27,232 nucleotides of DNA from a virus, in the IMG/VR virus record IMGVR_UViG_3300037847_002405, positions 1-27,232 of that record; one strand, 5' to 3'. The notes below the pieces were generated by a model that worked only from the letters and a program-made list of their open reading frames with translations, did not search any database and had not been told where the DNA came from. Both the position numbers and the translations under genes were made by a program. Shown piece by piece: positions 10,409 to 11,749 of the stretch. Numbering within the stretch: the first letter of the stretch is position 1; every line of letters begins with the position of its first letter.

Positions 10409-10728
10409 TCAGGTCGAAAAAACTGCTGGATGCGGCGAAAGATCAGTCATGCGTCAACTGCGGTGTCAGAGATGGCACCGTGGTTGCGGCCCACTATACC
10501 GGCCTACGCGCACACGCACTTGGTAAGGGTACAGGTCACAAACCACACGACTTGTTGATCGCTGACCTGTGCCACAAGTGCCACTACCAGTTCGATGTGG
10601 GCGGCGGTGGCGCAACCTTTGAGAAGAAGATCGACAAGTCAGAGCAGTTCCTGTTCAACATAGTCAAAACCTTGATGCGCCGGATTGATCAGGGCGTCAT
10701 CACAATAGAAGGAATGAAGGATGAGTGA
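10405..10728 (+). CDS. YbcO/DUF1364-like nuclease, 107 aa
   Basis: TTG 10405 is the likely start, overlapping the previous TGA as TTGA. The zinc-binding core has Cys16 and Cys19 (CVNCG), His30 in VVAAHYTGLR, and Cys56, Cys59 and His60 in LCHKCH, with GKGTGHKPHD between, which is the DUF1364 (YbcO) signature. The family is found in lambdoid ninR-type regions and is thought to be an HNH/His-Me-like endonuclease acting on DNA junctions or single strands. With RusA and the PD-(D/E)XK protein it makes three likely DNA-processing nucleases in this phage. Confidence 0.82.
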   Translation: MIRSKKLLDAAKDQSCVNCGVRDGTVVAAHYTGLRAHALGKGTGHKPHDLLIADLCHKCHYQFDVGGGGATFEKKIDKSEQFLFNIVKTLMRRIDQGVITIEGMKDE

Positions 10729-11156
10729 TGGAGATACACCTACCAAAGAGCGAAGCAGTGAGGCGGATGAGAGTGTTACAGTCACTGTGTCAGGAGTTTC
10801 CGCAAGTGGCACCTCAGATACTGGAGGTGAATTTACAGTCGAAGCACGGGGTGACACTGGAGGTGAAACCTCTGCGGACTCACCGCTCCAGACCGCAAGA
10901 AAACTACTACAGAAAGTGGTGCAACGGATTCGCAAAATTCTGCGGCTTGACCCCTGACGAAATGCACAACGAGCTTCTCTGCCAATGCTATGGGTCAGAG
11001 GAGATCGACAGCAAGTTTGGAGTAGTTCGTCGTCCGGTGAAGCGTAGCAACGATGCTACCCGTGGTGACTACTCAGAGCTGATTGAGACATTGTGCAGAG
11101 TGGCGGCACAGATGGGTTATGACGTACCACCCCCTGCTATGGAAGAGACAGCGTGA
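10728..11156 (+). CDS. NinB-like recombination protein (tentative), 142 aa
   Basis: ATG 10728 overlaps the previous stop (TGATG), and AAGGA lies upstream. The N-terminal 50 residues contain paired helices and strands (EAVRRMRVLQSLCQEFPQVA). The central RTHRSRPQENYYRKWCNGFA followed by KFCGLTPDEMHNELL matches the pattern R-S-x-x-Q-N-x-Y-Y...G-x-x-x-D-E-x-H common to NinB-type and related phage recombination proteins. The C-terminal part (RSNDATRGDYSELIETLCRV, then YDVPPPAME) also fits that group. Assigned by motif and neighbourhood only. Its stop overlaps the GTG of the next frame. Confidence 0.6.
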   Translation: MEIHLPKSEAVRRMRVLQSLCQEFPQVAPQILEVNLQSKHGVTLEVKPLRTHRSRPQENYYRKWCNGFAKFCGLTPDEMHNELLCQCYGSEEIDSKFGVVRRPVKRSNDATRGDYSELIETLCRVAAQMGYDVPPPAMEETA

Positions 11157-11749
11157 TTTGCGGCGAAGCATTAGAGCTACCTTTGTTTCCAACAAAGGAA
11201 GGGGGTGCAAGTCCCACCTCGCCGCTCCAAATTAAATTTGTGGAGATTGATAAGGGGGTGGCGGCAAGCCTTTACAGGAAGCACCACTACCTTGGGGACA
11301 AGGGCTTTTTACATCAGTACACCTATGGGGGTCTTTGGCATGGCGAGGTTATCTGCGCGATTACTTACGGGATACCTAACGCTCACTCCATAAACGGGCT
11401 ATACGACAAACACAATCAACACGGGGTGCTAGAAATAACAAGATTGGTGTGTGACCCACGTTGCCCCAAAAACACGCCCTCAAGAATGATCGCCATCACG
11501 ACAAGATTGTTAAAAAAAATCTACCCATTGAAGCTGTTGATTAGCTACGCAGACACGGCTCAAGGCCATGATGGAGGCATATACAAAGCGTCTAACTTCC
11601 GTGCTCACGGCCTGACTGCGAAGAAAACAGATTTCTTATTTCCAGACGGTTCTATACGGAAAGGCAGGGGCATCAAATACTCAGAGCTGGAGGGAGAGTG
11701 GGTTCCGCGATCCCAGAAATACCTATTCAGCAAAAGGATTGAAGAATGA
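11153..11749 (+). CDS. Mom-like DNA-modification protein (GNAT-like), up to 198 aa
   Basis: Phage Mu Mom, a GNAT-related enzyme, modifies adenines to block restriction. Matching features here are YRKHHYLGDKG (41-51), YGGLWHGEVICAITYGIP (58-75), LEITRLVC (Arg97), NTPSRMIAITTRLLKKIYP (Ser110), LLISYADTAQGHDGGIYKAS (Asp134, Tyr144) and the ending VPRSQKYLFSKR. Family length is about 200. The start is unclear: GTG 11153 overlaps the preceding stop (GTGA), but residues 3-26 would come from a tRNA-like sequence at 11160-11229, and the core domain begins near residue 27. GTG 11240 is an alternative but lacks a ribosome site. No com-like regulator is visible beside it. Confidence 0.75.
   Translation: MICGEALELPLFPTKEGGASPTSPLQIKFVEIDKGVAASLYRKHHYLGDKGFLHQYTYGGLWHGEVICAITYGIPNAHSINGLYDKHNQHGVLEITRLVCDPRCPKNTPSRMIAITTRLLKKIYPLKLLISYADTAQGHDGGIYKASNFRAHGLTAKKTDFLFPDGSIRKGRGIKYSELEGEWVPRSQKYLFSKRIEE
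11160..11229 (+). tRNA. tRNA-Gly(UCC)-like element with shortened D-arm
   Basis: GCGGCGA (11160-11166) pairs perfectly with TCGCCGC (11219-11225), followed by discriminator T11226 and CCA 11227-11229. The anticodon arm CTTTG-TTTCCAA-CAAAG (11181-11197) has anticodon TCC at 11188-11190, U33 and A37. The known bacterial glycine identity elements G1-C72, C2-G71, G3-C70, U73, C35 and C36 are all present. Only 14 bases separate acceptor and anticodon stems: AGC-ATTAGA-GCT forms a 3-bp mini D-hairpin with no GG. The T-arm GGGGG/CCCACC pairs with one bulged A, and its loop TGCAAGT has G where U55 is expected. It may be a decayed tRNA, a working noncanonical tRNA or a tRNA mimic. It overlaps the Mom-like frame. 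Confidence 0.75.

Follow-up and report, generated by a model that had tools for sequence, protein, structure and literature searches.

Mom Modification and the Closest Described Systems

The phage enzyme Mom produces alpha-N-(purin-6-yl)glycinamide, i.e., N6-glycinamide-adenine, in DNA (Swinton 1983, cited in PMC4461284). The source of the glycine has been an open question since the description of this base in 1983; in a 2021 review the donor was only guessed at, as an acyl-CoA such as glycyl-CoA (PMC7824862), and in the papers found on phage Mu it is unsettled. A search of the open-access literature gave no relevant paper on Mom with glycyl-tRNA or on tRNA-dependent DNA modification; a prior report among subscription papers and preprints is possible. 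To our knowledge, there is no DNA modification that takes its amino acid from a tRNA.

The non-proteinogenic tRNA-Gly of S. aureus, in which G18-G19 is replaced, feeds the FemX/A/B synthesis of the cell-wall bridge (PMC4052509), and the RNA family described below similarly pairs the loss of G18-G19 with a kept glycine identity. However, the S. aureus RNA comes from a normal cellular tRNA gene, whereas here a phage RNA lies in or beside the gene of the enzyme itself, with G55, a bulged T-stem, an often missing D-arm and DNA as the proposed acceptor. The thrS operator of E. coli is a tRNA-like structure at the mRNA 5' end, before the start codon, that regulates a synthetase; the Mom-linked family, in contrast, has no fixed place at the 5' end of an mRNA. 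The GNAT-fold toxins AtaT, AtaT2 and TacT acetylate glycyl-tRNA (PMC7595197, PMC7470980 and PMC9177977), while Mom would instead pass the glycine of an aminoacyl-tRNA to a DNA base. The tRNA-like structures of tymoviruses (RF00233) are tRNA mimics with the T-loop UGCAACU and G55, in which they resemble the element analysed here, but they form the 3' end of a plant RNA virus, and the RF00233 model scored the element at 14.9 bits against a gathering threshold of 40 (E 0.28), which is chance level.

The mom Gene and the RNA Element of the Window

The window, i.e., the whole stretch of DNA analysed, comprises positions 1-27,232 (27,232 nt) of the virus record IMGVR_UViG_3300037847_002405. Its plus strand encodes at 11153..11749 a Mom-like protein of 198 aa, which belongs to the Pfam family Mom (PF25680; E 6e-26, 91.8 bits vs. 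the cut-off of 27.1) and matches PHROG 1384. The AlphaFold model of this protein (pLDDT 92) had the Mom of phage Mu (8bv8) as its best PDB match, with Z 17.4, 164 residues aligned and rmsd 3.4; the window gene thus shares its family with Mu mom by sequence and predicted fold, and its product is a PF25680 member with a modelled GNAT-type Mom fold and a predicted role in DNA modification. Among the 50 PDB matches listed for the model, aminoacyl-tRNA transferases were absent, which is uninformative either way. The GTG start of mom overlaps the TGA of the preceding gene, in agreement with the GTGA coupling given by the first-pass annotation; this neighbour, directly 5' of mom at 10725-11156, is a NinB/Orf-like recombination mediator gene. 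In the related records L002 and L003, the GTG/ATG start and an upstream Shine-Dalgarno sequence are kept despite unrelated upstream DNA, which indicates that translation starts upstream of the RNA element.

The element itself, tRNA-Gly-like, occupies 11160..11229 of the plus strand (70 nt including CCA), corresponding to codons 3-26 of mom. The bacterial glycine identity set consists of U73, G1-C72, C2-G71, G3-C70, C35 and C36 (PMC9976931), and all of these bases are found in the element, as had been claimed. The 5' strand of the acceptor stem, GCGGCGA (11160..11166), carries G1, C2 and G3 and forms a perfect 7-bp stem with 11219-11225, and the 3' segment (11219..11229) consists of TCGCCGC, the discriminator U73 at 11226 and the encoded CCA at 11227-11229. 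The anticodon arm CCTTTG-TTTCCAA-CAAAGG (11180..11198) has a 6-bp stem, U33 and the anticodon TCC at 11188-11190. The gap between the acceptor and anticodon stems is just 13-14 nt and holds a reduced D-arm, AGC-ATTAGA-GCT, A (11167..11179), while the T-arm GGGGG-TGCAAGT-CCC(A)CC (11201..11218) bears G55 at 11207 in place of U55 and a bulged A at 11216. Thus, the element departs from a canonical elongator tRNA, being without G18-G19 and U55 and having a T-stem bulged on its 3' side instead of an unbulged 5-bp stem. Re-reading of the sequence bore out the first-pass annotation in the acceptor stem, discriminator, CCA, anticodon arm, short gap and U55 replacement; it had passed over the bulged A and two points treated below, the general tie to Mom and the correspondence of glycine charging with the glycinamide product. 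ARAGORN, proposed there as a check, did not call the element, and Rfam gave no significant match to it, so that non-detection by such tools carries little weight.

The part of Mom encoded by the element belongs to a flexible end of the protein: residues 1-20 have a pLDDT of 55-70 and are predicted to be disordered. Judging by this model, the element-coded tail could be a place where a second code is tolerated.

Conservation at the RNA Level

A covariance model (R1), built from 16 other sequences with the window left out, scored the window element at 48.5 bits (E 4e-12). Its score for the tRNA-Cys(GCA) at 1226-1299 of the window, which is ordinary and fully canonical, as previously stated, was a weak 28.9 bits. 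When the window is compared with L003, the 24 element codons show 0 synonymous changes and the remainder of the gene shows 58 (P = 1e-4 by permutation within degeneracy class); the corresponding comparison with L002 gave P 0.31. All 18 pairs of the window element survive in merely 0.011% of its random synonymous recodings. By the R1 score, the recoding test and the synonymous suppression against L003, the window element is not a product of chance.

The stem changes between relatives are of the compensatory kind. The pair 11183-11195 is T-A in the window, T-G in L003 and C-G in L002, a stepwise compensation, and the few other element changes among these three all fall in loops. In L018 and L064, with Mom cores of just 37-38% identity to the window Mom, the same element occupies the same reading frame, and the changes in its acceptor, D and T stems are compensated. 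The first-pass annotation had considered that relatives might show a full D-arm, with a sequence error or recent deletion in the window; the D-arm of L018 and L064 is indeed fuller (4 bp and a 7-nt loop), but it also lacks G18, and by this comparison the short arm of the window arose by a later, in-frame 6-nt deletion within its own small clade. Over an alignment of 16 sequences (A2), both-sided changes occur in 13/21 pairs with 98% of cells paired, and the covariation is 0.661 vs. 0.19 in shuffled alignments (0/500); over 78 matches fitted to the covariance model (A4), both-sided changes occur in 15/21 pairs, and the covariation is 0.691 vs. 0.166 (0/500). The window element is real, conserved and a member of a large family, previously unrecognised.

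Two explanations at the level of protein or DNA have to be weighed here. The view that the stretch is simply a peptide motif conserved at the Mom N-terminus, with codons that fold by accident, draws on the similar N-terminal LF...PTSP motif of relatives without the RNA, but it is hardly credible, since the fold does not survive synonymous recoding, disorder is predicted for the coded stretch, and the same RNA is found in C-terminal codons, across stops and in non-coding DNA. Accordingly, a chance or peptide-only origin was rejected on the synonymous-rate and recoding tests and the non-coding members, and with it the possibility, raised earlier, that only the amino-acid sequence is conserved across 11160-11229; the proposal that one stretch serves as RNA and as coding sequence stands, a glycine-type tRNA-like RNA doubling as mom codons. 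The Moms without RNA in L004 (3935-) and L010 (3914-) keep the N-terminal LF...PTSP/PSSP stretch (QDDLF, QLNLF), which may be what is left, as peptide, of an element since lost, or else a motif for binding the sliding clamp.

The DNA similarity of the window to L002 and L003 sets in precisely at the start codon of mom and gives out close to the stop, with unrelated flanks, and such limits between unrelated neighbours imply that the mom of this clade moves as a one-gene cassette. The element might then be a boundary or recombination site of the mobile cassette, or a decaying tRNA remnant. This reading is very improbable in view of the compensatory stem changes and the synonymous suppression; moreover, the glycine identity is kept to the single base, as would be expected neither of a DNA site nor of a decaying tRNA.

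Reciprocal Linkage of the Element and Mom

The distribution of the family was followed from both sides. From the RNA side, a pattern of the anticodon loop and T-arm had matches in at least 120 viral contigs, almost all of which shared a single spacing, and a pattern of the T-arm alone gave a further set of matches. A Mom-family domain lies in the same locus and on the same strand for 171 of the 185 structured elements, most of the 14 Mom-less ones being at contig ends. Among 71 records newly found by the RNA-only search, 67 contained Pfam Mom, compared with 1/19 control records that had a chance pattern match and no fold. From the Mom side, with a protein-only query that contained no RNA and 80 loci listed for each search, the element stands directly 3' of Mom in 80/80 listed loci of the WHYSK clade, near the 3' end of Mom in 71/80 listed loci of the HYSGK clade, and in only 5/80 listed loci of the wider clade of the window. 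The linkage of RNA and Mom is thus reciprocal.

BLASTn with family elements matched two phages, the Verrucomicrobia phage P8625 and the Psychrobacter phage Y8A. The latter, the isolated phage vB_PmaS_Y8A, has a ParB gene, a Mom gene (E 1.8e-55) and, immediately following the latter and before the terminase genes, a tandem pair of elements; its authors reported no tRNA genes (PMC10434257). A gene with a ParB-like domain often directly precedes Mom or the element (L243, L244, L104, L157, L175), and the annotated phages of this ParB-Mom group have terminase genes downstream. No relative was found by BLASTn of the window gene against phages or of the window element against plasmids, nor was there a match in the protein search of genome contigs; the pattern search of genome contigs gave 41 matches, most of them with chance spacing.

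The position of the element in relation to Mom is variable: among the 171, it lies in the C-terminal codons in 83, in the N-terminal codons in 67, across the stop in 17 and after the stop in 4. In addition, 13 of the 71 elements of the HYSGK clade are on the opposite strand. Moms with C-terminal elements and those with N-terminal elements branch as deep, separate clades of the Mom tree, and the sampled Moms without an element fall among the N-terminal types. With such varied sites (N- or C-terminal codons, across or after the stop, the opposite strand), the family is not a motif of the peptide, nor is it a regulator at the 5' end. A tRNA-like structure that acts in cis on the mom mRNA and controls translation of a toxic enzyme, possibly through binding of glycyl-tRNA synthetase or of Mom, would fit the window and the other N-terminal members, where the structure begins 7-12 nt past the start codon, as well as the toxicity and post-transcriptional control of Mu mom (PMC4461284), and on such a reading the element would bind the synthetase. 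However, proximity to the translation start is confined to these N-terminal members, while most of the family lies at the mom 3' end, across or after the stop, in tandem or on the opposite strand, where it has no control of mom mRNA initiation. A regulatory role is for this reason improbable, and the suggestion that the element acts as a tRNA-like 5' structure of the mom mRNA was not upheld.

The element also multiplies together with the enzyme gene: L107 (1025-1101 and 2478-2554) and L344 (1312-1381 and 2023-2092) each contain two Mom genes with an element of their own. Tandem elements were also seen in L244 (2890-2957 and 2962-3030). These duplications bear on a decoy or replacement for the host tRNA-Gly, directed against tRNA-attacking defences or GNAT toxins, with the tie to Mom reflecting a shared counter-defence. 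Known toxins do acetylate Gly-tRNA (AtaT, AtaT2) or pyrophosphorylate tRNA-Gly (FaRel2), according to published accounts. Nevertheless, counter-defence genes differ from phage to phage, whereas the element keeps to a single enzyme family, shares sequence with the reading frame of the enzyme and duplicates with it, and the Mom product itself contains glycine; a decoy is about as improbable as a regulator.

Glycine Identity Kept, Decoding Features Lost

Conservation within the family is concentrated on the glycine identity bases, which are kept, or nearly so, throughout. In a set of 125 unique elements, the pair 1-72 is always G-C (125/125), 2-71 is always C-G (125/125) and 3-70 is G-C in 122/125, while pairs 4-7 take all forms; N73 is U in 119/125, and where the CCA is not part of the gene, U73 is present without exception (37/37). 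In two samples picked without regard to the anticodon (n = 56 and n = 63), C35-C36 is kept in 54/56 and 61/63, the latter being the count for C35, and N34 varies between U, A, C and, rarely, G. U33 is required of decoding tRNAs; it is present in only 14/56 and 21/63 members of these samples, and loop size varies across the family. The bulged A on the T-stem 3' side and the T-loop TGCAANT are family-wide. A small subgroup (L312, L335) has the anticodon loop ACTTCGT with UUC in place of NCC, which speaks against glycine donation.

The elbow exists in two alternative states. In a sample picked solely by the Mom protein, U55 accompanies G18-G19 in 30/30 elements, whereas G55 is present in 12/14 elements with a GG-less D-loop and in 32/33 of the D-arm-less type, to which the window element belongs; the p of 4e-9 for this swap is optimistic, since the elements are related. 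Of the two options left by the first-pass annotation, coordinated adaptation and shared decay of the elbow partners, the former agrees with these counts. D-arm-less members recur in other Mom clades. Ordinary-elbow tRNA-Gly (GG with U55) is also found beside some Moms, and hence the odd elbow is not a requirement.

An extra glycine tRNA for translation, travelling with mom by chance, would explain the kept identity bases and CCA, and some minus-strand members near Mom are called tRNA-Gly by ARAGORN, namely 11 of the 13 opposite-strand elements of the HYSGK clade. Over the 125 unique elements, ARAGORN recognises 8, calling tRNA-Gly, and the Rfam tRNA model recognises 3 of the 7 loci tried. Such a role is, however, still less probable than regulator or decoy: U33 is mostly lost, the loop size is variable, the D-arm is often gone, there are changes at G18-G19 and U55 and a bulge in the T-stem, and codon supply fails to explain a reciprocal linkage to Mom only. 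Taken from the sequences, a kept identity with free N34 and altered U33, elbow and T-stem appears to bear the marks of an RNA selected for glycylation, not decoding.

Exceptions to the Linkage

No element was found anywhere in the Mom phages Mu, RaK2, Vibrio 1.187.O, Roseobacter CRP-212, Pan3, PK3.6 and SHEF2; for Mu, whose genome was covered as a whole, this is a difference from the window. Since many Moms, including that of Mu and most of the wider clade of the window, occur without the RNA, Mom cannot strictly need it; Moms without a linked RNA, Mu included, presumably use the host Gly-tRNA.

The converse exceptions are elements without Mom. In the complete genome of P8625, the element lies beside a ParB-methyltransferase and there is no Mom. 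Methyltransferase genes are nearby, with no Mom in the record, in L321 (792-860) and L338 (9442-9517, reverse strand), and a DNA methyltransferase is adjacent or nearby in L243 (KP792622; 1995-2070), again with no Mom in the record. In these, a methyltransferase may have taken the place of Mom, or the RNA may be used by another modifier. In L087, L111 and L202, an unrelated ORF of 164 aa has the element as its N-terminal codons; about 1 kb downstream, there is a distant Mom-like match that stays below the threshold. The Klebsiella phages RAH1 and 6 LV-2017 were set aside as carrying an ordinary tRNA-Gly and no Mom. The lambda-like Klebsiella phages L245 (2978-3052) and L246 (2478-2552) have an ordinary tRNA-Gly(TCC) between antiterminator Q and holin, with no Mom in the record.

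Proposed Function and Its Significance

A Mom-linked, non-decoding RNA with glycine identity and an enzyme product that is a glycinamide together point to a glycyl-RNA as the donor. Hence, the phage-encoded, non-decoding glycine tRNA-like RNA is probably a dedicated partner of Mom and its source of glycine. With slightly less confidence, a wider statement is also likely, namely that DNA is modified with a tRNA-borne amino acid, in that non-decoding phage glycine tRNAs, forming one evolving unit with Mom and often placed inside its coding sequence, take over glycine from the glycyl-tRNA synthetase of the host and bring it to adenine of the phage DNA.

The course of events that we infer would be as follows. 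Excision from the mom transcript would free the element for charging with glycine by the host glycyl-tRNA synthetase, which would read G1-C72, C2-G71, G3-C70, U73, C35 and C36, and the altered T-arm, elbow and anticodon loop would keep the charged element from EF-Tu and translation. Mom would then take the glycine off the element to make N6-glycinamide-adenine in the phage DNA. A route compatible with the GNAT fold would be the transfer of the glycyl group onto adenine N6, followed by a rearrangement that places the glycine nitrogen on C6 and turns the old N6 into the amide. In the window, the element serves also as the first mom codons, coding for the flexible N-terminal tail; for this N-terminal type, excision of the RNA would destroy its host mRNA, which counts against the donor explanation.

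The family thus points to a charged tRNA as the donor of Mom, a proposal testable in an isolated phage. If it is true, DNA would join the few acceptors outside the ribosome that receive amino acids from tRNA, and the same DNA stretch would be both the coding sequence of an enzyme and the RNA partner of that enzyme. There would also be a class of tRNAs in which charging is kept, decoding is lost and the G18-U55 elbow contact is replaced.
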